A stretch of 64,000 bases of DNA from contig OZ020253.1 in the NCBI GenBank assembly GCA_963971285.1, positions 62,001 to 126,000 on the forward strand, in the 5' to 3' direction. Below, one piece after another: positions 545 to 55,100 of this stretch. Source of the DNA: Astropecten irregularis (Eukaryota; Echinodermata; Asteroidea; Paxillosida; Astropectinidae). Below the pieces are notes generated by a model. That model saw only the letters and a program-made list of their open reading frames with translations. It did not search any database and was not told where the DNA came from. Position 1 is the stretch's first letter, and each line of letters opens with the position of its first letter. A program made the translations under genes and the position numbers.

Positions 545-1395
545 ACACTGGTCCGCAGACATATACATATATAAAGACAATAAGATCCTGGGGGTGGGTG
601 GGGGAGTATACTCCCCTCCCCCACCCAGGTCTTACTTTATTAAATATATGCATGAATATATACATATTATAAAGACAATAAGATCCTGGGGGTGGGCGGG
701 GGAAATTATACCCCCCCTCCCATGTCTTACTTTATAATATATATGCTCAAATATATACATGTATAAAGACAATAAGATCCTGGGGGTGGGCGGGGGAAGA
801 GTATACCCCTCCCCCACCCAGGTCTTACTTTATAATATATATGCTCAAATACATACATATATAAAGACAATAAGATCCTGGGGGTGGGCGGGGGAAGAGT
901 GTACCCCCCAGGTCTTACTTTATAATATATGCTCAATACATACATATATAAAGACAATAAGATCCTGGGGGTGGGCGGGGGAAGAGTATACCCCTCCCCC
1001 ACCCAGGTCTTACTTATATATGCACAAATACATACATGTATAAAGACAATAGATCCTGGGGGTGGGCGGGGGGAGAGTATACACCCCCCCCCCCCCTCCC
1101 AGGTCTTACTTTATAATATATATGCTCAAATACATACATATATAAAGACAATAAGATCCTGGGGGTGGGCGGGGGAAGAGTATACCCCTCCCCCACCCAG
1201 GTCTTACTTATATATGCACAAATACATACATGTATAAAGACAATAGATCCTGGGGGTGGGCGGGGGGAAGAGTATACACCCCCCCCCCTCCCAGGTCTTA
1301 CTTTATAATATAATTATGCACAAATATATATACATATATAAAGACAAAAAGATCCTGGGGGTGGGCGGGGTAGAGTATACCCCCTCCCCCATGAT
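545..1395. repeat. Tandem array of G-rich/C-rich hairpin units
   Basis: About nine copies of a roughly 85-110 bp unit. The core starts near 574, 671, 766, 866, 951, 1037, 1146, 1236 and 1340. Each unit runs from an AT-rich part (TATATAAAGACAATAAGATC) into a G-run (GGGGGTGGGCGGGGG), then GTATAC, then a matching C-run and GGTCTTACTTTATA. Every unit is therefore an imperfect inverted repeat around GTATAC. The G-runs could also form quadruplexes. The open frames in it are artefacts of the repeat. Confidence 0.9.
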
Positions 1396-1876
1396 TCAAC
1401 AACCAGTACAAACATTACAAAAGCCTAAAAATTTCCAAAAATGGCAGAAAAGAACCACTCCTACTGTCACGTAATTAACTAAATACTTCTTAAACTTAAA
1501 ATAATTAATAAATAAAAGAGTACATGCATGAACAAACAAATACAACAATTATTACATTAACACATTTATTCAAAAATTAAATCTAATATAACTGTGGTTT
1601 GTACAATGATTCATTTAAATTTTGCTTTGCTTAATCCCACACATAGTAACCTGCAATGGACACATTTTCTGTGTTAACAAGGTTAAAGTTTTATTGTTTA
1701 TTGAAGAGGTGAGAGGTTAATGAGTGCAGTTAGTTGAAGTTATAATAAGTGAGACTGGTTAGTGCAGAGAGAAATAAAAGACGAGAATGTGTGTCATTGC
1801 AAGTCAAATTTCTTTTAGACTTTCCCCAGGAATATGCACAAACAACAGTTAATTGCTACGACTATTTAACCCTAGA
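1396..1876. other. Unique AT-rich spacer
   Basis: No feature was recognised between the hairpin array and the next minisatellite. Confidence 0.5.
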
Positions 1877-2095
1877 TGCCGTCCTTGGTGCCGCCCTGGG
1901 TGCCGCCCTGGGTGCCGCCCTGGGTGCCGCCCTGGGTGCCGTCCTGGGTGCCGCCCTGGGTGCCGTCCTGGGTGCCGCCCTGGGTGCCGTCCTGGGTGCC
2001 GTCCTGGGTGCCGTCCTGGGTGCCGTCCTGGGTGCCGCCCTTGGTGCCGCCCTGGGTGCCGCCCTTGGTGCCGCCCTGGGTGCCTTCCTGGGTGA
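1877..2095. repeat. 12-bp GC-rich minisatellite
   Basis: About 18 copies of GTGCCGCCCTGG with a recurring C/T variant (GCC/GTC) and some TTGG variants. Because 12 is a multiple of three, several frames stay open on both strands; one plus frame reads Ala-Leu-Gly-Ala repeats. No splice or start context suggests it is translated. Confidence 0.9.
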
Positions 2096-2190: not shown

Positions 2191-2918
2191 TATTGCTGTA
2201 GTACTCGTACTTGGTACTCACACTCAAGTACTACTCGAGTACCGAGTACTTGTACTCGTATTCGCACTCGAACGTCCAAATACTCGCAATCGTCATTTGG
2301 TACTTGTACTTGGGCTACAAAATACTCAGAACTCGACATCCAAAAATTTTACTCGAGTATCTACGTACTCGTACTCAAAAAAGAGTACCGGTACTCGAAA
2401 AAAAAAAATGTTCAGTTTAAGTTTGTGGATCTGAGCATTCTAACAACGAATCAAATCTAGCGTATAGAAATTACATGCTTATGAATAGTTGAATCTGGAA
2501 AATAGACTTCGCCATGCCTGGCGTTTACGTTGTTGTAACGTATTACTGTTGCAGCACATAGCCACGTGTGTTGACCACCATTTTTAGATCAGCTGTAGGC
2601 AAAATTATGTCGTCCACATCTACTGTTGTTAAATTTGGGTTCAAAGAATACTGAGAATTTGTGCAGAATGGAGTCAAAAGCTACAGCGCAACTTGTTCAG
2701 GTTTTTTTTCCGGGACATAAGTACTTGTACTCATACTCGTACTCGGAAGATAAGTACTTGTATTCATACTTGTACTTGTACTCGGGTGAACAAGTACTTC
2801 TACTCGGAAACCAGTACTTGTCCTCGAATGGCAAAGTACTCGACCTGTCTTGGTACTCGGCAGTCAAAGTACTCAGCAGTACTTGGTACTCGGAAAAAAG
2901 TACTCGACTACAACACTG
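2191..2918. mobile_element. Non-autonomous hAT-like element, copy 1, TACTCG-rich
   Basis: The element is flanked by a perfect 8-bp direct repeat, ACAAAGAT, at 2183-2190 and 2919-2926, the target duplication size expected of hAT transposons. The right end, read inward, is CAGTGTTGTAGT; the left end TATTGCTGTAGT is a decayed match (9 of 12). Degenerate repeats of GTACTCG/TACTTG fill both subterminal zones (about 2195-2400 and 2715-2910). No transposase frame is visible. It shares ends and subterminal repeats with the copy at 29044-30701. Confidence 0.85.
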
Positions 2919-3055
2919 ACAAAGATATGCCCCTTCAGAAATGACACTTAGTAGCACTGATTCTTTGTAAAGCAAAGATGCGATGTTTGGGCTGTGGTGA
3001 TCACTGATTTACAGGTGGTGCCCACAAGTTAACAAAATTAACAAAGTTATCTCAC

Positions 3056-3153
3056 CTTCAGGGGCAGTGGTAGTCAGCTCATCAGTAGACGTCTTGAAGC
3101 AGCAAGCTCATCCCCCAGCGTTCATCCTCGAGTCCTCCCTCCATCTTCCAGCT
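3056..3153 (-). other. Diverged exon-like segment (98 nt)
   Basis: On the minus strand an acceptor (TTTTCAG at 3159-3154) and a donor (GTGAGATA after 3056) bound 98 nt. The segment is related to those at 3570-3648 and 4538-4606. A shared frame reads GGLEDERWGM, then meets a stop. It is probably a decayed duplicate exon. I recognise no protein family. Confidence 0.4.
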
Positions 3154-3569
3154 CTGAAAATGTGACACAATGGAAGATAAATGTCGCTAAATCAAACATA
3201 ATTCCAAAACATTCGGAAAGTTATAGCAATGACCTAGTAAATGAGAACCTATTCTATTCAACATTTTAGAGTTTTCTTTGTCCATCGCCCTGGTGAGAGA
3301 AGAAGGGCAGGATTTGCGTTTTTCATGAGGCAATTGAACTGGATCAATATGGGGAAAGACTTGGATGCTAGTCATGTCCAACTCATGTCAGCCCAGAACT
3401 TCCAAACAATGGAGCTGTTTAGAATCATGTCATGGGTCACAAGCAAAGAAGATTATTATATCATCCACATTCATGGTTTCCACTGCTACTCTGTGCCAAT
3501 TGAGATGGCATGTAGACAATGGTCATGTAGACAATGGTCGCACAATTAAATAGTTTCTTATCGACTCAC

Positions 3570-3648
3570 CTTCAGGACGGGAAGTGGCAAACTTGTCAAG
3601 CAGGGTCATCAGTTGCCATCTTGTATCCTCCCTGCTTCCATAGAAGTT
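3570..3648 (-). other. Exon-like 79-nt segment, oldest intact copy
   Basis: The minus strand has acceptor TTGTTTTACAG, exactly 79 nt, then donor GTGAGTCG. One frame is open throughout (phase 0 in, phase 1 out) and includes GSREDTRWQLM and TLLDKFA. It aligns residue for residue with the 79-nt units of the large array. The peptide looks helical but matches no family I can name. Whether it is spliced into an mRNA is unknown. Confidence 0.5.
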
Positions 3649-4066
3649 CTGTAAAACAATAGAAAAAGCAAGAGAAAGGTATTCCGTCAGTTAAACAATA
3701 GTCATGTCAGATGTTATTCACAAACAAACTTAACATCAGTCCAAAGATGCAGTGCTTGGGCTGTACTGATCACTGATTTACAGGTGGTGCCCACAAGTTT
3801 ACAGAATTCATCCAATCTGACCTTCATCAGGGGCAATGGTGAAATAAAATTTACTAGAACAATTCTGTAAAAATTGATTTTTCAAGTGTCGAAGGTGGGG
3901 GGCACCAAGGGGTTGGAAATGTCCTACTGAGAGCGCACAATTTAAAGAAGCAATTCCTTTTTGATGTACCAGCCCTATATTGTTGGTATCCCAAATTGTC
4001 ACTTTATCTTTGTTGGTTTGAATTGATTGAATGAATAGTCTCAAAAGTTTAATTACTGTATCTCAC

Positions 4067-4145
4067 CCCGATGTCTGGTAGCGATGTGCTTCTCAAGCAG
4101 TTAGGGTCATCAGCGGGTCATCTATCATCCTTCCTGCTCCCAGAT
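4067..4145 (-). other. Exon-like 79-nt segment, frame broken
   Basis: Acceptor ACGTACAG and donor GTGAGATA again bound exactly 79 nt on the minus strand. The sequence is alignable to the 3570-3648 copy (shared core CTGATGACCCT) but contains in-frame stops, so it is a decayed copy. Confidence 0.4.
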
Positions 4146-4387
4146 CTGTACGTGACAGGGAATACAAGTTACAAGTCACCACAGGTCGCCTCAATAGTCA
4201 ATTCACGTGACTGGTACGTGTTAAACTTTGTAAGATGCTATTCAAACATTCTTATAATAAGGGTTTGAATAGCTTCATACACAGCTTGAGACTAGTTTTG
4301 TACATATTGAATTCTGGTGACTTGAGGTGACTTGTGGTGAGTCTTTCTACAACTCTGTCGGGGGTGAAAAGGAGGTGTCATTCTTAC

Positions 4388-4466
4388 CAGGAGTGAAAAT
4401 CCTGTGATGGTTGGTTCGTCTGTCCTCCAAGCAGCCGCGTTGAGCTTCAAAGTCCTCTTGCACCAT
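4388..4466 (-). other. Exon-like 79-nt segment, open frame
   Basis: Acceptor TTGACTTCTAG and donor GTAAGAAT bound 79 nt on the minus strand. One frame is open (MVQEDFEAQRGCLEDRR...), with the same phase 0 to phase 1 pattern as its neighbours. Its sequence similarity to the others is weak, but length and splice context agree. Confidence 0.35.
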
Positions 4467-4537
4467 CTAGAAGTCAAAATCAAAAAGGAAAGAATGAAAA
4501 CCAGTTCAAGCGCTCTTTCTTCAAACAAACTCTCACC

Positions 4538-4606
4538 TCTGGACATTGAAGCGGCGAGCTCATCCCCCAGCGTCCATCCTTGAGTCCTTCCTCCATCTTC
4601 AAGCTC
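4538..4606 (-). other. Exon-like 69-nt segment related to 3056-3153
   Basis: A minus-strand acceptor (CACACTTTCAG) and donor (GTGAGAGT) bound 69 nt. Two frames are open, one reading SLKMEEGLKDGRWGM. It is close to the 3056-3153 copy at the DNA level. I cannot tell whether it is expressed. Confidence 0.35.
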
Positions 4607-4759
4607 TGAAAGTGTGACAGATTGGAAGACAATTGTTGCTAAATCAAACTTAATTGCAAAACATTCTAAAAGTTATAGCAATGACCAAGTAAATGAGGAT
4701 AAGTATCCTTTGTCATCACCCTGGTGAGAGAAGATGGGCAGGATTTCATACAGTCAAAG

Positions 4760-7700
4760 TTTAGCTTTCATGGTTCCACTAACTAATTTGAATTTAGTGT
4801 AGTTTATGTTTTGATGGTTAAATTCATTCGGTCAAAGTTTGGGTTTCATGGTTCCACTAATTAACTCTCACCTTCAGCAGCAGTAGTAATGTTTTTGTCA
4901 AGCAGGGCCATCAGATGACGTTGTTCCTCCTACCTGCTTCCAGTTCAAGACTCGCATCATCTGTAATCAAAATCTCAAAACATCAGTTTGAATTTAGTGT
5001 TGTTTATGTTTTGATGGTTAAGTTCATACAGTCAAAGTTTGGGTTTCATGGTTCTACTAATTAACTCACCTCCAGGAGCAGTAGTAATGTTTTTGTCAAG
5101 CAGGGCCATCAGATGACGTTGTTCCTCCTCTCTGCTTCCGGTTCCGGACTCGAATCATCTGTAATCAAAATGCCAAAACATCGGTTTGACTTTAGTGTAG
5201 TTTATGTTTTGCTTCCGGTTCCGGACTCGTTTGGGTTCCATGGTTCCACTAATTAACTCTCACCTTCAGCAGCAGTAGTAATGTTCTTGTCAAGCAGGGC
5301 CATCAGATGATGTTGTTCTTCCTCCCTGCTTCCGGTTCCGGACTAGCATCAACTGTAATCAAAATGCCAAAACATCAGTTTGAATTTAGTGTAGTTTATG
5401 TTTTGATGGTAAAGTTCAAACAGTCAAAGTTTGGGTTTCATGGTTCTACTAATTAACTCACCTCCAGGAGCAGGAGTAATGTTTTTGTCAAGCAGGGCCA
5501 TCAGATGACGTTCTTCCTCCCTGCTTCCGGTTCCGGACTCGCATCAACTGTAATCAAAATGCCAAAACATTGGTTTGACTTTAGTGTAGTTTATGTTTTG
5601 CTTCCGGTTCCGGACTCGTTTGGGCTCCATGGTTCCACTAATTAACTCTCACCTTCAGCAGCAGTAGTAATGTTCTTGTCAAGCAGGGCCATCAGATGAC
5701 GTTGTTCTTCCTCCCTGCTTCCGGTTCCGGACTAGCATCAACTGTAATCAAAATGCCAAAACATCGGTTTTGACTTTAGTGTAGTTTATGTTTTGATGGT
5801 TAAGTTTATACAGTCAAAGTTTGGGTTTCGTGGTTCTACTAATTAACTCACCTCCAGGAGCAGTAGCAATGTTTTTGTCAAGCAGGGCCATCAGATGACG
5901 TTGTTCTTCCTCCCTGTTTCCGGTTCCGGACTCAGATCATCTGTAACCAAAATGTCAAAACATCAGTTTGAATTTAGTGTAGTTTATGTTTTGATGGTAA
6001 AGTTCAAACAGTCAAAGTTTGGGTTTCATGGTTCCACTAATTAACTCTCACCTTCAGCAGCAGTAGTAATGTTTTTGTCAAGCAGGGCCATCAGATGACG
6101 TTGTTCTTCCTCCCTGCTTCCGGTTCCGGACTCGCATCATCTGTAATCAAAATGCCAAAACATCAGTTTGAATTTAGTGTAGTTTATGTTTTGATGGTAA
6201 AGTTCAAACAGTCAAAGTTTGGGTTTCATGGTTCTACTAATTTACTCACCTCCAGGAGCAGTAGTAATGTTTTTGTCAAGCAGGGCCATCAGATGACGTT
6301 CTTCCTCCCTGCTTCCGGTTCCGGACTCGCATCATCTGTAATCAAAATGCCAAAACATCAGTTTGAATTTAGTGTACTTTATGTTTTGATGGTAAAGTTC
6401 AAAGAGTCAAAGTTTGGGTTTCATGGTTCTACTTATTAACTCACCTCCAGGAGCAGGAGTAATGTTTTTTGTCAAGCAGGGCCATCAGATGACGTTGTTC
6501 CTCCTCCCTGCTTCCGGTTCCGGACTCGCATCATCTGTAATCAAAATGCCAAAACATCAGTTTGAATTTAGTGTAGTTTATGTTTTGATGGTAAAGTTTA
6601 TACAGTCAAAGTTTGGGTTTCGTGGTTCTACTAATTAACTCACCTCCAGGAGCAGTAGCAATGTTTTTGTCAAGCAGGGCCATCAGATGACGTTGTTCTT
6701 CCTCCCTGTTTCCGGTTCCGGACTAGCATCAACTGTAATCAAAATGCCAAAACATCAGTTTGAATTTAGTGTAGTTTATGTTTTGATGGTAAAGTTCAAA
6801 CAGTCAAAGTTTGGGTTTCATAGTTCCACTAATTAACTCTCACCTTCAGCAGCAGTAGTAATGTTCTTGTCAAGCAGGGCCATCAGATGACGTTGTTCTT
6901 CCTCCCTGCTTCCGGTTCCGGACTAGCATCAACTGTAATCAAAATGCCAAAACATCGGTTTTGACTTTAGTGTAGTTTATGTTTTGATGGTTAAGTCCAT
7001 ATAGTCAAAGTTTTGGTTCCATGGTTCCACTAATTTACTCTCACCTTCAGCAGCAGTAGTAATGTTCTTGTCAAGCAGGGCCATCAGATGACGTCGTTCC
7101 TCCTACCTGCTTCCAGTTCCGGACTCGCATCATCTGTAATCAAAATGCCAAAACATCAGTTTGAATTTAGTGTAGTTTATGTTTTGATGGTAAAGTTCAA
7201 ACAGTCAAAGTTTGGGTTTCATGGTTCTACTAATTAACTCACCTCCAGGAGCAGTAATAATGTTTTGTCAAGCAGGGCCATCAGATGACGTTCTTCCTCC
7301 CTGCTTCCGGTTCCGGACTCGCATCAACTGTAATCAAAATGCCAAAACATCGGTTTGACTTTAGTGTAGTTTATGTTTTGATGGTTAAGTTTATACAGTC
7401 AAAGTTTGGGTTTCATGGCTCCACTAATTATCTCTCACCTTCAGCAGCAGTAGTAATGTTCTTGTCAAGCAGGGCCATCAGATGACGTCGTTCCTCCCTC
7501 TTCTGGTTCCGGACACGCATCATCTGTAATCAAAATGTCAAAACATCAGTTTGAATTTAGTGTAGTTTATGTTTTGATGGTAAAGTTCAAACAGTCAAAG
7601 TTTGGGTTTCATGGTTCTACTAATTTACTCACCTCCAGGAGCAGTAGTAATGTTTTTGTCAAGCAGGGCCATCAGATGACGTTCTTCCTCCCTGCTTCCG

Positions 7701-10700
7701 GTTCCGGACTCGCATCATCTGTAATCAAAATGCCAAAACATCAGTTTGAATTTAGTGTAGTTTATGTTTTGATGGTAAAGTTTATACAGTCAAAGTTTGG
7801 GTTTCGTGGTTCTACTAATTAACTCACCTCCAGGAGCAGTAGCAATGTTTTTGTCAAGCAGGGCCATCAGATGACGTTGTTCTTCCTCCCTGTTTCCGGT
7901 TCCGGACTAGCATCAACTGTAATCAAAATGCCAAAACATCAGTTTGAATTTAGTGTAGTTTATGTTTTGATGGTAAAGTTCAAACAGTCAAAGTTTGGGT
8001 TTCATAGTTCCACTAATTAACTCTCACCTTCAGCAGCAGTAGTAATGTTCTTGTCAAGCAGGGCCATCAGATGACGTTGTTCTTCCTCCCTGCTTCCGGT
8101 TCCGGACTAGCATCAACTGTAATCAAAATGCCAAAACATCGGTTTTGACTTTAGTGTAGTTTATGTTTTGATGGTTAAGTCCATATAGTCAAAGTTTTGG
8201 TTCCATGGTTCCACTAATTTACTCTCACCTTCAGCAGCAGTAGTAATGTTCTTGTCAAGCAGGGCCATCAGATGACGTCGTTCCTCCTACCTGCTTCCAG
8301 TTCCGGACTCGCATCATCTGTAATCAAAATGCCAAAACATCAGTTTGAATTTAGTGTAGTTTATGTTTTGATGGTAAAGTTCAAACAGTCAAAGTTTGGG
8401 TTTCATGGTTCTACTAATTAACTCACCTCCAGGAGCAGTAATAATGTTTTGTCAAGCAGGGCCATCAGATGACGTTCTTCCTCCCTGCTTCCGGTTCCGG
8501 ACTCGCATCAACTGTAATCAAAATGCCAAAACATCGGTTTGACTTTAGTGTAGTTTATGTTTTGATGGTTAAGTTTATACAGTCAAAGTTTGGGTTTCGT
8601 GGTTCTACTAATTAACTCACCTCCAGGAGCAGTAGCAATGTTTTTGTCAAGCAGGGCCATCAGATGACGTCGTTCCTCCCTCCTGCTTCCGGTTCCGGAC
8701 ACGCATCATCTGTAATCAAAATGTCAAAACATCAGTTTGAATTTAGTGTAGTTTATGTTTTGATGGTAAAGTTCAAACAGTCAAAGTTTGGGTTTCATAG
8801 TTCCACTAATTAACTCTCACCTTCAGCAGCAGTAGTAATGTTCTTGTCAAGCAGGGCCATCAGATGACGTTGTTCTTCCTCCCTGCTTCCGGTTCCGGAC
8901 TAGCATCAACTGTAATCAAAATGCCAAAACATCGGTTTTGACTTTAGTGTAGTTTATGTTTTGATGGTTAAGTCCATATAGTCAAAGTTTTGGTTCCATG
9001 GTTCCACTAATTTGCTCTCACCTTCAGCAGCAGTAGTAATGTTCTTGTCAAGCAGGGCCATCAGATGACGTCGTTCCTCCCTCTTCTGGTTCCGGACACG
9101 CATCATCTGTAATCAAAATGTCAAAACATCAGTTTGAATTTAGTGTAGTTTATGTTTTGATGGTAAAGTTCAAACAGTCAAAGTTTGGGTTTCATGGTTC
9201 TACTAATTTACTCACCTCCAGGAGCAGTAGTAATGTTTTTGTCAAGCAGGGCCATCAGATGACGTTCTTCCTCCCTGCTTCCGGTTCCGGACTCGCATCA
9301 TCTGTAATCAAAATGCCAAAACATCAGTTTGAATTTAGTGTAGTTTATGTTTTGATGGTAAAGTTCAAACAGTCAAAGTTTGGGTTTCATGGTTCTACTT
9401 ATTAACTCACCTCCAGGAGCAGGAGTAATGTTTTTGTCAAGCAGGGCCATCAGATGACGTTGTTCCTCCTCCCTGCTTCCGGTTCCGGACTCGCATCATC
9501 TGTAATCAAAATGCCAAAACATCAGTTTGAATTTAGTGTAGTTTATGTTTTGATGGTAAAGTTCAAACAGTCAAAGTTTGGGTTTCATGGTTCCACTAAT
9601 TAACTCTCACCTTCAGCAGCAGTAGTAATGTTCTTGTCAAGCAGGGCCATCAGATGACGTTGTTCTTCCTCCCTGCTTCCGGTTCCGGACTAGCATCAAC
9701 TGTAATCAAAATGCCAAAACATCAGTTTGAATTTAGTGTAGTTTATATTTTGATGGTAAAGTTCAAACAGTCAAAGTTTGGGTTTCATGGTTCTACTAAT
9801 TTACTCACCTCCAGGAGCAGTAGTAATGTTTTTTGTCAAGCAGGGCCATCAGATGACGTTGTTCCTCCTCCCTGCTTCCGGTTCCGGACTCGCATCATCT
9901 GTAATCAAAATGCCAAAACATCAGTTTGAATTTAGTGTTGTTTATGTTTTGATGGTAAAGTTCAAACAGTCAAAGTTTGGGTTTCATGGTTCTACTAATT
10001 AACTCACCTCCAGGAGCAGGAGTAATGTTTTTGTCAAGCAGGGCCATCAGATGACGTTCTTCCTCCCTGCTTCCGGTTCCGGAGTCGCATCAACTGTAAT
10101 CAAAATGCCAAAACATTGGTTTGACTTTAGTGTAGTTTATGTTTTGCTTCCGGTTCCGGACTCTTTTGGGCTCAATGGTTCCACTAATTAACTCTCACCT
10201 TCAGCAGCAGTAGTAATGTTCTTGTCAAGCAGGGCCATCAGATGACGTTGTTCTTCCTCCCTGCTTCCTGTTCCGGACTAGCATCAACTGTAATCAAAAT
10301 GCCAAAACATCGGTTTTGACTTTAGTGTAGTTTATGTTTTGATGGTTAAGTCCATATAGTCAAAGTTTTGGTTCCATGGTTCCACTAATTAACTCTCACC
10401 TTCAGCAGCAGTAGTAATGTTCTTGTCAAGCAGGGCCATCAGATGACGTCGTTCCTCCTACCTGCTTCCAGTTCCGGACTCGCATCATCTGTAATCAAAA
10501 TGCCAAAACATCAGTTTGAATTTAGTGTAGTTTATGTTTTGATGGTAAAGTTCAAACAGTCAAAGTTTGGGTTTCATGGTTCTACTAATTTACTCACCTC
10601 CAGGAGCAGTAATAATGTTTTTGTCAAGCAGGGCCATCAGATGACGTTCTTCCTCCCTGCTTCCGGTTCCGGACTCGCATCATCTGTAATCAAAATGCCA

Positions 10701-12393
10701 AAACATCAGTTTGAATTTAGTGTAGTTTATGTTTTGATGGTAAAGTTCAAACAGTCAAAGTTTGGGTTTCATGGTTCTACTAATTAACTCACCTCCAGGA
10801 GCAGTAGCAATGTTTTTGTCAAGCAGGGCCATCAGATGACGTTGTTCTTCCTCCCTGCTTCCGGTTCCGGACTCAGATCATCTGTAATCAAAATGTCAAA
10901 ACATCAGTTTGAATTTAGTGTAGTTTATGTTTTGATGGTAAAGTTCAAACAGTCAAAGTTTGTTTGTTTGTTTGTTTGTTTGTTTTATTTTCCATTCATA
11001 CAAAGGAAATAATTCACAAAATTATATAAGATACAAAATAATTTAGACAAAATTGTATAAAAAATAAGCTATAAAAAATATCTATATTGTATGAATGGGG
11101 GTGACATCCGAGAGAAGGTTTGGGTTTCATAGTTCCACTAATTAACTCTCACCTTCAGCAGCAGTAGTAATGTTTTTGTCAAGCAGGGCCATCAGATGAC
11201 GTCGTTCCTCCCTCCTGCTTCCAGTTCCGGACTCGCATCATCTGTAATCAAAATGTCAAAACATCAGTTTGAATTTACTGTAGTTTATGTTTTGATGGTT
11301 AAGTTCATTCAGTCAAAGTTTGGGTTTCATGGTCCACTAATTAACTCTCACCTTCAGCAGCAGTAGTAATGTTTTTGTCAAGCAGGGCCATCAGATGACG
11401 TCGTTCCTCCTACCTGCTTCCGGACTCGCATCATCTGTAATCAAAATGCCAAAACATCAGTTTGAATTTAGTGTAGTTTATGTTTTGATTGGTAAGTTCA
11501 TACAGTCAAAGTTTGGGTTTCATGGTTCTACTAATTAACTCACCTCCAGGAGCAGTAGTAATGTTTTTTGTCAAGCAGGGCCATCAGATGACGTTCTTCC
11601 TCCCTGCTTCCGGTTCCGGACTCGCATCATCTGTAATCAAAATGCCAAAACATCAGTTTGAATTTAGTGTAGTTTATGTTTTGATGGTAAAGTTCAAACA
11701 GTCAAAGTTTGGGTTTCATGGTTCTACAAATTAACTCACCTCCAGGAGCAGTAGTAATGTTTTTGTCAAGCAGGGCCATCAGATGACGTTGTTCTTCCTC
11801 CCTGCTTCCGGTTCCTGACTCGCATCAACTGTAATCAAAATGCCAAAACATCGGTTTGACTTTAGTGTAGTTAATGTTTTGCTTCCGGTTCCGGACTCGT
11901 TTGGGTTCCATGGTTCCACTAATTAACTCTCACCTTCAGCAGCAGTAGTAATGTTCTTGTCAAGCAGGGCCATCAGATGACGTTCTTCCTCCCTGCTTCC
12001 GGATCCGGACTCGCATCATCTGTAATCAAAATGCCAAAACATCAGTTTGAATTTAGTGTAGTTTATGTTTTGATTGTTAAGTTTATACAGTCAAAATTTG
12101 GGTTCCATGCATGGTTACACTAATTAACTCTCACCTTCAGCAGCAGTAGTAATGTTCTTGTCAAGCAGGGCCATCAGATGACGTTGTTCTTCCTCCCTGC
12201 TTCCAGTTCCGGACTCGCATCATCTGTAATCAAAATGCCAAATCATCAGCTTGAATTTAGTGTAGTTTATGTTTTGATGGTTAAGTTTATACAGTCAAAG
12301 TTGGGTTTCATGGTTCTACTAATTAACTCACCTCCAGGAGCAGTAGCAATGTTCTTGTCAAGCAGGGCCATCAGATGACGTCGTTCCTCCGCC
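4760..12393 (-). repeat. ~197-bp tandem array, each unit carrying a 79-nt exon-like segment
   Basis: About 38 units were counted by the shared string CAGGGCCATCAGATGACG (first near 4904, last near 12362). On the minus strand each unit has an AT-rich spacer ending in GATTACAG plus GATGCGAG or GATGCTAG, then typically 79 nt, then GTGAGT or GTGAGA. The 79 nt stay open in one frame in most copies, with the core HLMALLDKN and a variable tail (ITTAAEG, IATAPGG, IITAPGG). Common indels are 3 nt, as when CGTTCTTCC replaces CGTTGTTCTTCC, so the frame is kept; a few copies have 1-nt shifts. Some units are short recombinants containing TTTTGCTTCCGGTTCCGGAC (near 5200, 5600, 10140, 11880). The plus-strand frames in the array are by-products of the period. 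No flanking anchor exon was recognised. Confidence 0.9.
10962..11117. mobile_element. Insertion inside the 197-bp array, (TTTG)n-tailed
   Basis: The array is interrupted by about 156 bp of foreign AT-rich DNA and then resumes in the middle of the unit. The insert starts with (TTTG)n and contains a perfect 12-bp inverted repeat, CCATTCATACAA at 10992-11003 and TTGTATGAATGG at 11087-11098. Read on the minus strand it ends in a CAAA-repeat tail, as the 3' end of a SINE or LINE would. Confidence 0.6.
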
Positions 12394-12394
12394 C

Positions 12395-14560
12395 TGTGAA
12401 TCAATTTCTTACACACCTTCGAGTCAAAAATCACTGACAAACATACGCAAGGTACGCCCACTCTTGGACGATTCACAAATTTCGTTGAATCGGAATAGAT
12501 AATGATTAAACAAAGCAATAGGGATACATCATTCGGAGAATGGACAATATTGACTCCAATAAGCACTGTTGCAACCGCGATTCACTTTAGAGTGAATAAA
12601 TTTCTTACACATATACGCAAGGTACGCCCACTCTAGGACGATTTACAAATTTCGTTGAATCGGAATACAGAATGATTAAACAAAGCAATAGGGATACAGT
12701 ATAAATCATTCGGAGAATGGACAATATTGACTCCAATAAGCACTGTTGCAACCGCGATTCACTTTAGAGTGAATAAATTTCTTACACATATACGCAAGGT
12801 ACGCCCACTCTAGGACGATTTATAAATTTTGTTGAATCGGTATACAGAATGATTAAACAAAGCAATAGGGATACAGTATAAATCATTTGGAGAATGGACG
12901 ATATTGACTCCAATAAGCACTGTTGCAACCGCGATTCACTTTAGAGTGAATAAAATTAATTTCTTACAAATACACGTAAGGTACGCCCACTCTTGGACGA
13001 TTCACAAATTTCGTTGAATCGGAATAGATAATGATTAAACAAAGCAATAGGGATACATCATTCGGAGAATGGACAATATTGACTCCAATAAGCACTGTTG
13101 CAACCGCGATTCACTTTAGAGTGAATAAATTTCTTACACATATACGCAAGGTACGCCCACTCTAGGACGATTTATAAATTTCGTTTAATCGGAATACAGA
13201 ATGATTTAACAAAGCAATAGGGATACAGTATAAATCATTTGGAGAATGGACGATATTGACTCCAATAAGCACTGTTGCAACCGCGATTCACTTTAGAGTG
13301 AATAAAATTAATTTCTTACAAATACACGTAAGGTACGCCCACTCTTGGACGATTCACAAATTTCGTTGAATCGGAATAGATAATGATTAAACAAAGCAAT
13401 AGGGATACATCATTCGGAGAATGGACAATATTGACTCCAATAAGCACTGTTGCAACCGCGATTCACTTTAGAGTGAATAAATTTCTTACACATATACGCA
13501 AGGTACGCCCACTCTAGGACGATTTATAAATTTTGTTGAATCGGTATACAGAATGATTAAACAAAGCAATAGGGATACAGTATAAATCATTTGGAGAATG
13601 GACGATATTGACTCCAATAAGCACTGTTGCAACCGCGATTCACTTTAGAGTGAATAAAATTAATTTCTTACAAATACACGTAAGGTACGCCCACTCTTGG
13701 ACGATTCACAAATTTCGTTGAATCGGAATAGATAATGATTAAACAAAGCAATAGGGATACATCATTCGGAGAATGGACAATATTGACTCCAATAAGCACT
13801 GTTGCAACCGCGATTCACTTTAGAGTGAATAAATTTCTTACACATATACGCAAGGTACGCCCACTCTAGGACGATTTATAAATTTCGTTTAATCGGAATA
13901 CAGAATGATTTAACAAAGCAATAGGGATACAGTATAAATCATTTGGAGAATGGACGATATTGACTCCAATAAGCACTGTTGCAACCGCGATTCACTTTAG
14001 AGTGAATAAAATTAATTTCTTACAAATACACGTAAGGTACGCCCACTCTTGGACGATTCACAAATTTCGTTGAATCGGAATAGATAATGATTAAACAAAG
14101 CAATAGGGATACATCATTCGGAGAATGGACAATATTGACTCCAATAAGCACTGTTGCAACCGCGATTCACTTTAGAGTGAATAAAGTTCTTACACACCTT
14201 CGCGTGAGTCAAAAATCACTGACATACATACGCAAGGTGCGCCCATTCTTGGACGATTTACAAAATTTTGTTGAATCGGAATACAGAATGATTGAACAAA
14301 AAAATAGGGAAACAGCACAAATCATTCAGAGAATGGACAATATTGATTCCAATAAGCACTATTGGAATCGCGATTCACTTTAGAGTGAATTAACATTTCT
14401 TACACACCTTCGACGGAGTCAAAATCACTGACATACATACGCAAGGTACGCCCACTCTTGGACGATTTACAAAATTTCGTTGAATCAGAATACAGAATGA
14501 TTCAACAAACTACAAAGCAACGGGGACAGTACAAATCATTCAAGGGATGGACAATATTGA
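12395..14560. repeat. ~178-bp satellite-like array with dimeric and tetrameric higher order
   Basis: About 12 units, each with ACGCAAGGTACGCCCACTC, TTGAATCGGAATA, GGAGAATGGACAATATTGAC and the palindrome TTCACTTTAGAGTGAA. Two unit types alternate (cacATATACGC/CTCTAGG and aaATACACG/CTCTTGG), giving a ~357-bp dimer near 12949, 13306, 13663 and 14019. Rarer variants recur at ~714 bp (12826 and 13540), a tetramer. It begins where the 197-bp array ends. The last two units are divergent. Confidence 0.9.
14087..14383 (+). other. 98-codon open frame across diverged array units
   Basis: The frame starts in one array unit and runs through the diverged unit at 14186-14380, ending at the TAG inside the unit palindrome. 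The second half reads KVRPFLDDLQNFVESEYRM then a Glu/Gln-rich helical stretch. In other units the same frame is broken by TAG in CTCTAGGAC. It may preserve an ancestral coding segment or be fortuitous. No family was recognised. Confidence 0.25.
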
Positions 14561-14579
14561 TTCCCGAAGATCGCAAAGC

Positions 14580-15212
14580 CACTAATTACTTGTAGGATAC
14601 AACTCACAATTCACATGTGAGTAAACAGATTTAAATACCTAGTATGTTGCCTTTTCAGAGTAACAATTTAAGTGCAAAGAACACAAAGATAAAACAACAT
14701 AAAGAAGTACCTTTCTGTGTACAATTTATTACTCAAAATAGAAGGATGTTTATGATCATAGGCCTAAACACAAGGGCGCAAAAAAGACAAAGGAACTCAA
14801 TGTTCAACACTCAAGTCAGACATCTGAAATACGATGGTATACGTCAACTTGACGATTTATTGTCATCGCTACAACCCCCAAAACTAGTGGCTGTTTCTAA
14901 ATATGATAAATATTTACAGAGTAGGGTGACTCCACTCCGTATGACTTAACAAATATAGTTACCAGTACATGTCTGATATAGATGTCCAGTGGTCTGGGTG
15001 CCAGAGCCCGAAGTAATCTCCTCTCAAGGATCGGTTTCCTCCCCTAATTACTGGTGAGGCCACGGATTCAACGTGGGGGTTGTGCCGGCAGGGGTATTCA
15101 ACCCATGGATAGGGCCATCTGTACAACCAAAATAAATTGAATGCAAATTTTGTTGATGGTTAGTCATGCAATAAAGTTGATAACATAAAATTACGCAAAA
15201 ATACCGGGTCAG
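14580..15212. other. Unique sequence without a recognised gene
   Basis: An open frame at 14644-14949 (101 codons) shows no domain, no splice context and no similarity I know. I regard it as chance. Confidence 0.4.
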
Positions 15213-19000: not shown

Positions 19001-19099
19001 ATAATGATAAGATCATTGAAATTAAAAACACAATCATCAAATAACCACGAGGTAAACTGACTGAATTGAAAGTCATTGCAAAGTAAACAAAGAAAAATT

Positions 19100-19173
19100 G
19101 GCTGGAGCGAGATTCGAACCGGCGACCTCCTGAATACTGTACTGCTGCTTTACCAACTGAGCCATCCAGCCCT
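19100..19173 (-). mobile_element. tRNA-derived SINE head
   Basis: Read on the minus strand it begins GGGCTGGATGGCTCAGTTGG (D-arm/A-box-like) and carries CCGGTTCGAATCTCGC (T-arm/B-box-like) and TCCAGCC, which pairs with the 5' end. The anticodon stem does not pair, and the T stem has mismatches, so it is a SINE head and not a working tRNA gene. Related heads are at 20253-20332, 41555-41635, 53850-53912, 53971-54045 and 62877-62948. Confidence 0.75.
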
Positions 19174-19964: not shown

Positions 19965-21196
19965 CTACGAGCCTTTCTTATCGGTGGATGATGATGATGT
20001 AGGCAGCTCAAAGGTGGTGTTTTCCAGCTGAGCAATCACATCCATGTGTTTAAAGTGGTCTTGGTCGTGGTTGAATGCCCAGAGAAGTTTGGTCCTATCA
20101 GGATTGTCTGTGGCATAGTAGAGCTGCAGTTGATTGGCTAAGAATTGCGCATCCTGGACACTCTGTCGAATTTCAATCAGAAAATGGCCAAACAAAAGCA
20201 CTTAAATGGTTGTTTCAGAATGTGGATTTGAAAGGTGAACTAAGAAAATTTGACTGGAGCGGGATTTTAACCTGTGTTCCTAAATAATAATAATATTCTG
20301 GCACTCTAGCAACTGAGCGATCCAGCCCTAAGGCATGTAAGATAGTGATATTTCAAAGAGTCAATCATCTTGGCTCGTTTGCAAGTCACAAGCCATGAAA
20401 CCACTCACATACTGCTATATCCGAACCAACGATCATCTTAAGATATCTTGCGACATTAACAATACTGCAAACATGAGAAATGGTGTATGGGGAAACACTC
20501 AAACACTCAATCAATGATCAGTGATTGCTGAAAACAATTGGTTCAGCAGATAAGTGCCCCCTGATGGACACAAGAGTGGATGGATGAGATGCAATCCGCA
20601 ATGTAAATAATGGTTCCCGTGGACCTACCAATCTGTTGCTACCCCAAAACTTGTACCAGTGAAATTTATGCTGGGCAGTAAAAGTAGATGCTAGCTCAAC
20701 AGTGTTTAATATGTAAATAGATTTTAAGCCAGCCATTTTCTGACTTGGACTAAAAGATGGCCATCGCACACTAGTGCAAATCAGTTGACTTTAACCTCTT
20801 GTTCTGCCAGAACCAGATCTTTTCCCAATAAAGATATTTTCAGAGTTCATGATTTTATTGGAGCCATCCTCAAACTGATGGAAATATCTCACCAAATTGT
20901 CTGTGTCCATTTCTCCACGCATAAGAACAATTCCTGAGAAACAAAAGTTGATAGAAACTATTAGAAGATACAAAAAGTGTTTACCACTGTTTAACTCCAA
21001 AACTGTTTTCAACTTGTTTCCAGCTTATTCCAGCAGGGTTCACATAACATTAATGCACATCCCCACAGCATGGGCGAACATGAACAATTTAAAAAATGTC
21101 CCTGGTTGATTATTTCTGTGTTATTTACTGATTTGGGTTGAGAGAGGTCGCTACAAGAAGCAAGCTTGGTCATGAATAACGCAGAACTTGGTACAC

Positions 21197-46179: not shown

Positions 46180-49100
46180 TTAGTCGTCGTCACTGCTACT
46201 GCCTGATCCAGAATGTGAGGAACCAGACTCATTATGTGAGGAACCAGACTCATTATGTGAGGAACCAGACTCATTATCCGATGCATCAGAATTTTCTGCA
46301 AGTTGTAAAGAAACAAAACACATTTTTGTTTTAACATATATGTTTCAAGAGGAATTAATCTGGATATCCAATGTCTGATTCTTAACGTCTTAACTAGACA
46401 ATGGACTGGGGGAGAGACTAGCATTAAAGCCGATTAGACCCAGCCACTGAAAAGCCTGGCCAGGCCTGGGTTTTGCCTGGGGTCTTGGGCTTCTGAAATC
46501 CCTCCTTTGTCCTGGATCATATTTGGCATAAACCCGAATCCAGAAGCCAGGCTTTATTGACTTTAAGCAGCTGTGTTATAAAGATCAGGGATCGATTTCA
46601 CGAAGCCCTGCGATCGATCGTTACTCGAGTTACAAAGGATAACCCATCGTAGGGGACCTATCCCACGTAGGGCTGCAATGCATCAAAAGTCCAATCAAAT
46701 CAAAAGTTATGAAGAGTTTGGTGAAAACAACCCCAGGCTGGTAAGAGGCCAGGGCCTGACCAGGCTTTCCAATAACTGGGCCTAGTCAGGCTTTGCAATA
46801 ACTGGGCCTGGCCAGGCCCAGTTATTAGAAAGCCAAACTGGGCCTGGCCAGGCTTTCCAATAACTGGGCCTAGTCAGGCTTTGCAATAACTGGGCCTGGC
46901 CAGGCCCAGTTATTAGAAAGCCTAACTGGGCCTGGCCAGGCTTTCCAATAACTGGGCCTAGTCAGGCTTTGCAATAACTGGGCCTGACCAGGCTTTCCAA
47001 TACCTGGGCCTAGCCAGGCTTTCCAATAACTGGGCCTAGACAGGCTTTGCAATAACTGGGCCTGACCAGGCTTTGCAATAACTGGGCCTGGCCAGGCTTT
47101 GCAATAACTGGGCCTGACCAGGCTTTGCAATAACTGGGCCTGACCAGGCTTTGCAATAACTGGGCCTAGCCAGGCTTTGCAATAACTGGGCCTGGCCAGG
47201 CTTTGCAATAACTGGGCCTGACCAGGCTTTGCAATAACTGGGCCTGACCAGGCTTTGCAATAACTGGGCCTGGCCAGGCTTTGCAATAACTGGGCCTGAC
47301 CAGGCTTTGCAATAACTGGGCCTGACCAGGCTTTCCGATAACTGGGCCTAGCCAGGCTTTCCAATAACTGGGCCTGGCCAGGCTTTGCAATAACTGGGCC
47401 TGACCAGGCTTTGCAATAACTGGGCCTGACTAGTATTATGTTAATCAGCAGCATGGTTATCATTTAGGCCTAATGTGTCATACCTTGTTCTAGGTCGTCT
47501 GTGGCTGATGATGAGCTAATAGTGCTGTCCTGCAGTGTACCCTCACCATACTGAGGCAGATCGCTGTACAGTACACTATGCAGCAGATCTGATGAAACTT
47601 TCACTGCCAAAAAGTTGGAAGGAGGATCAAGTTAAACAAAGAGTAATAGCAACTACCAACATAAAACACAATATTTAGATAAACAAAAACACGAAGACAG
47701 AGATTATGAGAACAAGAATGTTTTACGTTTTCTGAAAATAGAGACAGAAGGAGCATTCCTGATGTTCAACAAAGTTCCACAGTTTGGGACCAGCTATAGA
47801 AAACAGTCTATTTCTGAAAGATTTTAACCTATGAAGTATAATTACCATGATAATAGTGATTACACTATTGTTTCTTCTTTCCGTATTTCCACTTTGTTCA
47901 GTCGTTAAAACAATGAACAATGTTTTGACCACGCATGTCACTTGTTTAAGATTTATAAGATAAGCTAGTTTACTTACAGGGTTTGCGACTAGATGGATTG
48001 ATTAGTTTGGCTGTCTTGACATCATTGTAATCTGTCTCTTCATTTGTTCCTCCAAATATATACAGCTGTTAATAAATAAGAAAGAAACATCTGTGGAAGT
48101 CTGCAAAATGTCTCAGAATCCTCCATTCCCAATTAATCTTTGAAGCTTTTGGTGCAACAACAACCTGAGCTATCAGTCAGCAGATTCATGCAAACAAGCC
48201 ATTTGTGCTCAGGATCTTTAAAGTTATATAGGCATTCTATACCACAAACTCTCAAGGATACAAGGGGAGGAGGGTAACGAGCATGACGGGAGGAGGGTAA
48301 CGAGCATGACGGGAGGAGGCATGTATGTCAGGGCCTAACCCTCTTGAAAACTGATTTCAAGAATTGCTGTGCCTCCGTGAGCCCCAAGCTTCTGAGATCA
48401 CATCCTAGTTATGCTAATGGTTTAATTGAATCTGCTCTACACCTATGATACAATATCACATAAGCCTAACACAGAACCATTCCTTACAAGACACGACTCT
48501 ATTGTTGTAACTGACATAGAGAGGGTTGCATAATTCATAGCTTGTCAGTTTGAATACTTACAAAGTTGAGATATGTCCAAGCTATGTGACCAAATCGTCT
48601 GGCTGGGGGATTTCCAGAATAAAATGGCCGTTTCCATTTCATCTTAGCTTCAGATACAGATAGTTAGAAAAAGGAAAAGGGACTCTGTTATTTAAATACT
48701 TTCTTTGTAAAATAATGAACCTAATAGCAATATTAACATGAACTGCACAAGGACTGTTTACTGCATAAGTACTTGTCTTAAGTTCAAACACAGGTATAAT
48801 AATGATGAAAGTTTCAATAAATTGCTATTAAGGATTTAATGATTTATTTCTTACCCAAGCTTAGTTTATGGAGATCATCCAGCGTGGTCTTTCCTTTCAA
48901 GCAGTCATTGGATCCACCAAATACATAGATATCCTATATGCAACACAGACAATTCAAAATAACACAATCAACAACACTGAAATATTCACGATGCAGTACC
49001 AATAATTCACGGTCCCACTGACTTTAATCCTATGTTCAAGATTGCGTCAACCGAGCTCAAGAAAAATCTGAGATAATTTCAAATTCTTCACCCAAAATCA

Positions 49101-52100: not shown

Positions 52101-55100
52101 ACAAGTTCTAAGATTGGTCTCTATAGGCCATAGTTATACATACAGCATTGTGTACACATAATGAGTAATTTTCATGCAATCATTTAGCAACATAAAACTG
52201 ATTGTTTTAGATGTCATACCTTGGTGCTGGTGGCTGGCCTGTTACTGCAAGTTTGGTCCACGTGTTTCCCTCTGTCAAATGAATATCATCATAAAATTGA
52301 TTACATTTCATCATGTGAGGAAGTCAAGTTAGGAAATTATTACTGGTATACATGTAAGAAGTATGCAATGGGATATATAAACTGATTAGAACATGTCCAA
52401 TGTAGGTCGTTTTGTGCATGAAATAATGATTTCTAATCAGGGTATGTATGTTTGCAGCTATAGGAATGAAAAGGCAAATTGGCAGCCCACAACATCAGCA
52501 CACATACAAACACAGTGCACAGTTTAAGATGTTTGTTTTTCAGAGCCAGAGAACCAATGAGAGAACCAACACACAATGCAAAGCTGCTTTTATACTTTGA
52601 GTCTGAGTTATAATCACAATCAAACTGGAATCTAACCAGGGCCATAGCAGTGAACAGCACGGTGCTTTTCACACCTAGACAACTCAACAAAGTCATTCAC
52701 ACGTACAATAATAATAATAATAATTTATTGCACTTATCGTGCGCTCCCTCCAGGATCAACCTGTTCGAGAGCGCATTACATGTACATTAAAACGGACATT
52801 AAAACACCAATCATAAAAGAAAAATAAATAGATAAATACGTACCAACAAAATAAAAAAACAGTTACACAATGACTAAACAGAGAATACAAATAGCACACT
52901 AATGTCTGGACATACCAGTATCTAGTACATCCACGTCACAATGCGCCTCGCCTTTGTGGATACCGCCGATCACAAAAATCTTCTTGTTGACAACCGCCCA
53001 GCCGGGATTCAATGCTCTTGGCTCAACTCCATGCGTCGGTTCATGTCTCCAATTACTAGTTTCTGGAAAATACAAAAAGAGACATTGGGTGCATGGGTAT
53101 ATTCAAGGCAGGGAAGGGGTGCTGCAGGCCAAAGAGCAGGAGAGGGTACCCAGAGCTGAAGGGGATTCCCCAACGCCATCAAGACAAGGAAGAAGGTTAG
53201 GTGGAAGCTGAGAGAATAGGAAGAAGGGGATGTCAAAGGCAGGGTAGAGGGTGCTCATTCCCAGACTAGGATCAAGTGCCCTGGCAGAATGAGTCCCATG
53301 AGAAGAGAGTTCAAAGGATTGGATGCCCACTAGAAGGGATCCATACACTTATGAGTACTTACTTGTATTGAATGAATACAGCCCTGATAAGCTCTCTTCA
53401 GCATTCTGTTCATTCCTTCCCCCAAACACGTACAAAATGTTTCCAACAGCACTGCAAAAAATCCAACACAATTATTAATTTTAATCTTGATAGATTTTGG
53501 ACCTGTGGCCACAAGGTTACTATGATGCACTAGCATTCTCAGGAGGGCATTTCCACCTTCTGTGGCAAATAAGAGAATATAAAACATCAAACATAATTTG
53601 TGCTGAATCAATCACTAGCTGATCAGCCTCCATGTCAAGAGGTGCCTCCAGATCTGCCCCAGACATGAAGCCATCAAAAATCAGTTACTCCTGAACCATT
53701 CAACTCAAATCAGTTCTAACTCAGTCAAATTTGATTTTGCTAATCCCAAGCAGTCAACAATCTTAAACCGCACCAACATTTGGATAAAACCTTTCTTGCA
53801 AAATTGTTTTCTGTATTCAGATTTTTTATGATAAATTATTTGGCAATCATCGAACTGCGACCTCCTGAATACCGTATAGGCGTTCTACCAACTGAGCTAT
53901 CCAGCCCTACACCTATCTTTGTTCGTTTGCAGTCAGAAGCCATGAAACCAGGCACACACAACCAACGCAGGGCTGAATAGCTCAGTTGGTAGAGCACCTG
54001 TATGGTACTCAGAAGGTCACCGGTTCGAATCCTGCTCCAGTAAATTTTCTTTATTCACCTTTCAAGTATTAAATACATCAGTATTATGTATAAGAGGAAT
54101 GCAAGCTTACCATAGGGCGTGGTCATGACGACCTACTGGAGCATTGCCAGCATATCGAACCTTTTCCCATCTTAAGATCCTACCAACTGCAGTCAAATAA
54201 ACAGCAAATACAAACATGGTATGAATTAAAACAATTGGTTACACATCAATCAACTTACTGAAGTGAGGTAATGCCAACAAAATATGATAATAAATCACAT
54301 CAAACTATTCCCTTTAACTGCCACCTCAGTTTACCAAATAATTACCAGTAATCAAAGTATTTCAACTAGAGATTCAAAATGTTTTCAGATGGGAACATAA
54401 TATTATTTGAAGTGTTAAGATATTAATCAATTTGTATTAGTTCATGAGATTGATATCAATTAAGATTCAGAGGCCATTTTAGTGATAATTCAATTTTGAA
54501 ATCTGATTTATCTGAATATTTTTGAAAGACACTTACAGTGAAGCTTGTGTAAGTCTCTGAAGTAAAAGATTCCCTGCATGAAGGAGAAGATAAAGTCGAA
54601 TTCTTGTTAAATAAATTACAGGTAGTTTCATTAGAACATAATGAACTGAGAAAGTCACAAAAAAACCAAAACGAATTACAAAACAGGTTCACAACAATTT
54701 TAAAAATGGCAATTTTCATTACAGAATATTGAAAATAATAGTGGCAAAAAGTTGAGATGAAACATAAATAGCAACATAATTTACTTCAACTCTGGGAAAT
54801 TTGTCTAGCTTCAGCTTTGACATTGAAATCATTTTTTTTTATCAGAAGCCATTTTTCAGCATTAAAATGCATAATTTTCTTGTAATTGTTTGTAAAAGAA
54901 TAATAAATTGTAGGCCTACCCTTTCAGGTTCCTCCACACAGCGTGTTCCACCAAAGATGTAGGCAGTATTATTAATGACAGCAATTGCATGGCCTTGTCT
55001 GTATCACAAAGGAAAAACAAAGGATAGATTTTACTTTTATCTCTGCATTTAAAACAAACCCTATGAAGTATCGATCAGCTGAAAACTGTAAATTTCTCCT

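Follow-up and report, generated by a model that had tools for sequence, protein, structure and literature searches.

We analyzed a 64,000-nucleotide stretch of the genome of the sea star Astropecten irregularis (contig OZ020253.1, here C17; C17:62001-126000 of the 475.7-Mb assembly GCA_963971285.1), hereafter the window, in which an exon-like segment that we call exon A is repeated together with its intron on the minus strand. A first-pass annotation of this DNA had noted some 38 tandem copies of a ~197-bp minus-strand unit, and we located 38, at 12393..4872 on that strand, all of them recovered head to tail by a hidden Markov model (HMM) of the unit. Judging from DNA sequence, the array is probably a satellite-like tandem amplification of exon A and its intron in a subtelomeric, telomere-directed and apparently non-coding multi-exon unit, one member of a family found at several chromosome ends. 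In the window's member, the 38 copies of A are followed by exons X1, X2, X3, X4 and X5 and a terminal exon, T:

12443..14564, strand not assigned: 177/352/209-bp satellite adjoining the array, with array copy 1 truncated near the junction
4787..12393, minus strand: 38 tandem copies of a ~197-bp unit made up of exon A and its intron (repeat scan and HMM)
10961..11110, minus strand: ~150-bp insertion with an (AAAC)n tail, between copies 7 and 8
6052..6140, minus strand: a typical exon A (copy 32), 89 nt, with TTACAG acceptor and GTGAG donor
4537..4605, minus strand: exon X1, 69 nt
4388..4466, minus strand: exon X2, 79 nt in this member; in the others mostly 80, 87 or 88 nt
4067..4145, minus strand: exon X3, 79 nt here; 75 nt in 20/24; core in common with A
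3570..3648, minus strand: exon X4, 79 nt; core in common with A, introns unalike
3056..3153, minus strand: exon X5, 98 nt; first part X1-like
1872..2087, minus strand: terminal exon T, with a 12-bp repeat; its 5′ limit is deduced from a CAG acceptor
1690..1702, minus strand: two AATAAA poly(A)-signal-like sites past T
563..1391, minus strand: G-rich tandem repeat of 98 bp, lying downstream of T and with matches past T on C10, C20 and C24

Copy-to-copy spacing in the array was 191–201 bp with a single exception of 360 bp, which is accounted for by the ~150-bp insertion. Mean pairwise identity was 89% (n = 37 units), and identical unit pairs lay six or eight units apart, indicating higher-order repeats; the head-to-tail arrangement and the concerted, higher-order homogenization are those of a satellite. 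On its 5′ side the array meets the 177/352-bp satellite, which truncates copy 1, and on its 3′ side it continues into the intron preceding exon X1. No upstream anchor exon for the array was found. Outside the array, the array HMM recovered weak relatives at 3640-3557, 4152-4059 and 3093-3045. In units 4, 12, 35 and 37 (e.g. 11940-11860), an exon fragment, GAGTCCGGAACCGGAAGC, stands in place of part of the intron, and the change is identical in all four.

The strong acceptor of the copies is TTTTGATTACAG (ggttacag in one copy; copy 1 is truncated), and the exon-like segment that begins there measures 83–90 nt (89 nt in 22/38 copies), the length of copy 1 being meaningless because it is cut at the satellite junction. 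GTGAG follows every copy (38/38), which bears out the GTGAGT/GTGAGA donor of the first-pass annotation. That annotation had also described a 79-nt segment with an AG acceptor, and this held in part: the shorter version starts ~10 nt downstream of the strong acceptor, at an AG that 33/38 copies have (GCGAG in 21, GCTAG in 9, CTGAG in 2 and TCGAG in 1), but this site is weaker than TTACAG and is absent in 4 copies (the count leaves out copy 1, which was misplaced by the placing script). From the 79-nt start to the donor, the frame containing HLMALLDKN is open in 33/38 copies, as had been stated for most copies, and carries an in-frame TAG in 5. In 5 other copies a 1-nt indel in an A run shifts the donor phase, matching the 1-nt shifts reported earlier, and 28/38 copies combine an open frame from the 79-nt start with donor phase 1. 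The first-pass annotation had described length variants that differ mainly by 3 nt and keep the frame; the segment lengths that we measured vary modulo 3. From the strong acceptor, 34 of the 36 copies in the alignment, which excluded copies 1 and 8, had stops in all three frames.

We also ran the codon-position test that had been proposed with the first-pass annotation and found no codon pattern among the differences between array units. In the HLMALLDKN frame, the variable sites at codon positions 1, 2 and 3 were 7/27, 6/26 and 5/26, and the changes comprised 7 synonymous, 12 non-synonymous and 2 stop changes against 55:171:8 possible. Together with the higher-order repeats, this lack of a codon pattern supports the exon-derived satellite that had been ranked first, an interpretation that was right but incomplete, having missed exons X1–X5 and T at 4605-1872 as well as membership in a family.

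Family searches used the array DNA and a 1.5-kb unit from C20 as queries, and their match counts are lower bounds. Among the matches listed, the family lies near at least 8 ends of large contigs (C10, C16, C17, C19, C20, C24, C27 and C28); one stretch of the C20 query also matches repeats dispersed through chromosome interiors, and an intronic part of this query (806-971) matches in both orientations. Element placing covered ~173 kb (158.5 kb of retrieved sequence and 14.6 kb of the window) and yielded 221 elements of seven types in 8 loci (A0 counted with A) in telomere-pointing orientation, the only orientation that the placing retained. A reverse-orientation control with 5 of the 7 seed types gave 0 matches, and in the stretches examined a two-strand HMM put the family on the minus strand at contig starts and on the plus strand at contig ends, with no exception. 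Homologous units are thereby found near several chromosome ends in one telomere-ward orientation. Their elements follow the order A0-A-X4-(X1-X2-X3-A[-X4])n-X5-T with local variation, and five of the eight ends carry two T-ended units. TTAGGG tracts were present at C17, C19, C27 and C28 (4/8 ends), and none were seen in the stretches examined of the other four. The distance from the last T to the tract is 2.4–4.5 kb on C19, C27 and C28, where a T with AATAAA precedes the telomere tract, and 62 kb on C17. An upstream flank piece of the window (14747-14859) is common to C10, C16 and C20. Recurring short TTAGGG blocks (4–8 repeats) occupy C17:6241-19365, run opposite in orientation to the terminal CCCTAA tract and form a telomere-repeat-containing subtelomeric satellite.

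Rather than forming arrays at many loci, the 197-bp tandem occurs, among the matches listed, only at C17 (38 copies) and at C10 (2 adjacent copies). The two A units on C10 lie 197 bp apart and share 82% identity with the array across 384 nt; elsewhere exon A sits inside larger units and recurs about every 1.4–3.6 kb. The simplest reading of this distribution is that exon A was amplified with its intron inside an existing member.

All exon types of the family bear strong splice-like sites. Class medians fell at the 96–100th percentile of the window's minus-strand GT/AG sites for donors and at the 92–100th for acceptors, against a background that includes the array's own sites. The neighboring genes are ordinary: ATPAF1 (Pfam ATP11, 1.1e-52; ending at 19965, on the same strand as the array) and a nucleotide-sugar transporter gene. 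Six ATPAF1 exons scored in the same way gave donors at 97–99 and acceptors at 71–100, and the family's splice sites thus score like those of this neighbor. We aligned 37 of the 81 A copies, taking 3 of the window's 38 and, after removal of 9 with low scores, 34 of the 43 in other members. In this alignment the donor GTGA was invariant, and the acceptor AG was intact in 34/37. Invariant columns numbered 33/89 in the exon vs 14/114 in the intron stretches (p = 4.5e-5), and mean consensus match was 0.902 in the exon, 0.892 in the upstream intron and 0.739 in the downstream intron. AATAAA lies within 500 nt past 15/15 T ends, the T copies being related to one another.

A 15-nt core with the motif CTGATGACCCTGCTTGA is common to A, X3 and X4, and GATG[AG]CCCTGCTTGA is identical in A0, A, X3, X4 and the array consensus. 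Over this core, the longest invariant run in 36 array units spans 24 columns (permutation p = 0.0009). The exon similarities X3–X4, X3–A and X4–A were each matched by 0/1000 shuffles, while the 90-nt flanks of X3–A and X4–A were at chance and the X3–X4 upstream flank gave p = 0.012. The likeness of the window's X3 and X4 to A does not extend past the exon, so the exons were kept, for some period at least, as the introns diverged. X1 and X5 form a duplicated pair, and their upstream introns can be aligned as well; X2 has no similarity to the other window exons. Fused exons on C20 (at 9651 and 8199) and C24 (15136292-15140611) join the 5′ half of A to an X4-like 3′ half with the intervening intron gone, which points to recombination within the common core. 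Just 5′ of the core, 21 of the 32 non-window A exons listed (e.g. C24:15136292) carry a full TGACGTCA palindrome, which we take to be like a cAMP response element (CRE); the window array has the CGTCA half only.

Exon lengths, as set by the exon-placing script, vary modulo 3 in each class: A has 89, 86, 85, 90 nt and others, X1 has 69 or 70 nt (70 in 12/30), and X2 has 80, 87, 88 nt and others (80 in 17/30, 88 in 3), with lengths mixed within loci. Exon A was closed in all frames in 71/80 exons and X5 in 17/18, and X3 was open in one frame in 23/24. Variation at codon positions 1/2/3 was 4/4/5 in the open frame of X3 and 2/6/2 in that of X4, with no third-position excess; it was 22/18/20 in A and 4/4/7 in a closed frame of X2 (80 nt). 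When all exons of a unit except T were joined (n = 13 units), the longest stop-free stretch lay in the range given by mononucleotide shuffles, one C28 unit coming nearest to an exception (2/100 shuffles as long). No conserved reading frame was found across the members, though some joins without A (or without A and X4) exceed shuffles. Because of the frame closure, the lengths modulo 3, the codon-position variation and the shuffle tests, we call the family apparently non-coding as a whole, a designation that is not proven for each member. A coding exon or protein family was rejected: the peptides tried matched nothing in Pfam, and the two compared with PDB had no match there. Plus-strand coding, with array open reading frames (ORFs) of up to 132 aa, was dropped because the unit length is not a multiple of three.

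In the model that we favor, the family units are, or recently were, transcribed telomere-ward, spliced and polyadenylated as non-coding RNA, and unequal crossing-over would most simply have amplified the internal exon A with its intron; the extra A copies would be mostly neutral and would add repeats to the RNA. Several observations weigh against this model. Exon and intron of the array vary alike (22/89 vs 32/109 variable columns, p = 0.52, with the four converted units dropped; 24/89 vs 45/109, p = 0.037, with all 36 units), and in 24 X1–X3 segments exon divergence equals intron divergence at ~5%. The splice percentiles lean upward because the exon-finding script favored good sites. Plain exchange between chromosome ends would also give the shared orientation. 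Five telomere-bearing contig starts (C11, C18, C21, C22 and C23, of twenty sampled) have no family copy among the matches listed, and the family is therefore not on every end. Some joins without A, or without A and X4, reach or pass the edge of the shuffles (C20, 225 aa, 0/100; C28, 146 aa, 0/100; C24, 166 aa, 2–3/100; C19, 148 aa, 5/100), and in one frame the codon differences between the window's X1 and X5 are 4 synonymous and 2 non-synonymous.

The strongest competitor, to which we would give somewhat less than even chances, is a dead subtelomeric satellite whose exon-like parts would be remnants left by an old gene, carried from end to end by exchange and now silent; it differs from our model in present transcription only. 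Such a satellite would be expected to carry stops and frameshifts and to show equal exon and intron divergence at short range, both of which we see, and exchange alone accounts for its orientation. Yet the invariant GTGA, the largely intact AG and the larger share of invariant exon columns in the 37 aligned A copies argue against this reading, within the limit that mean consensus match in the exon barely exceeds that in the upstream intron. The strong splice-like sites in all exon types and the AATAAA past every T end, in copies that are related, also speak against silence.

A protein-coding repeat gene with a 77-residue unit of X1, X2 and X3, in which A and X4 would be skipped or poison exons, is decidedly unlikely. 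Phase 1-1 is available to X1 (69 nt), X2 (87 nt) and X3 (75 nt) alike, X3 is nearly always open, the C20, C28 and C24 joins that omit A or A and X4 give long ORFs, and the X1–X5 differences are mostly synonymous; but X1 also has a 70-nt form and X2 80- and 88-nt forms, mixed within loci, the open frames of X3 and X4 have no third-position excess, and the peptides tried drew no Pfam match or, for two of them, PDB match.

Mutually exclusive clusters of the Dscam type are made up of tandem exons whose lengths are similar and not multiples of three, a description that also fits the array, but the array is not translatable from its strong acceptor and its copies are not diversified. A true mutually exclusive exon array, ranked second in the first-pass annotation, is highly improbable: although most copies are open from the 79-nt start with donor phase 1, a length of 79 nt recurs in the window's X2, X3 and X4, and the frame passed on by that phase is free of stops in the window's X1, X2 has a stop in this frame, the 79-nt acceptor is missing from some copies, other members have exons of 75, 80 or 87 nt, A is closed in all frames in most exons over all members, and the copies, with lengths that vary modulo 3 and stops in every frame from the strong acceptor, do not share one open frame and a constant phase.

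Elsewhere in the window, Rfam at gathering score gave two tRNA matches, both away from the array (19099-19171, minus; 53971-54043, plus). They lie inside a dispersed repeat that also occurs at 20228-20330 and 62860-62963 and that we assign as like a short interspersed nuclear element (SINE), since the similarity extends beyond the tRNA. A structured RNA was rejected as an explanation of the family, the tRNA matches lying elsewhere and two weak Rfam matches in 2900-5500 being implausible. A 26-bp tandem repeat of ~20 copies at 46752-47433 has long stop-free minus-strand frames.

We compared the family with known systems. The lncRNA-TARE of Plasmodium falciparum comprises homologous non-coding units on 22/28 chromosome ends with telomere-ward transcription (PMC3218844), and the Astropecten family resembles it in having units that are similar between several ends and point telomere-ward. 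Unlike lncRNA-TARE, the Astropecten units have many short exons with strong splice-like sites and lie near at least 8 ends. The primate DDX11L family is spliced and multi-copy, with three exons, and runs from telomere to centromere in many subtelomeres (PMC2705379); it too is a multi-copy subtelomeric family in one orientation, whereas ours runs from centromere to telomere and has an exon array, which DDX11L lacks. In Tetrahymena leucine-rich repeat (LRR) genes, coding exon arrays have been expanded by unequal exchange, with exons of exactly 90 bp in phase 2. These arrays are likewise tandem exon/intron units, and the young ones are rich in pericentromeric and subtelomeric regions, but the 83–90-nt exons of our array keep neither an exact length nor a single phase or frame. 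Like telomeric repeat-containing RNA (TERRA; PMC10529574), a transcript of the family would run from subtelomere to telomere and would give UUAGGG if read on; unlike TERRA, the Astropecten units stop at T, and their poly(A)-like signals come ahead of the TTAGGG tract. Among the listed results of literature searches on tandem exons, exon-derived satellites and spliced subtelomeric RNA, none describes the family, which is not proof of absence.

A more far-reaching version of our model seems rather unlikely on present sequence evidence. In it, the family would be a many-exon, telomere-directed non-coding RNA gene at several ends, whose exons repeat the 15-nt core and whose exon number evolves fast, reaching 38 on C17, and its product would be a repeat-valent, spliced TERRA- or TARE-like RNA beside the telomere.

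Under the more modest reading, amplification of exon A within a subtelomeric non-coding unit, the locus would record a conversion of exon to satellite with its intermediates kept, from single copies in large units through the C10 pair to the 38 copies on C17. It would also present a subtelomeric family in an animal with good splicing signals aimed at the telomere. If transcribed, the family would yield a spliced chromosome-end RNA whose exon number differs between ends.

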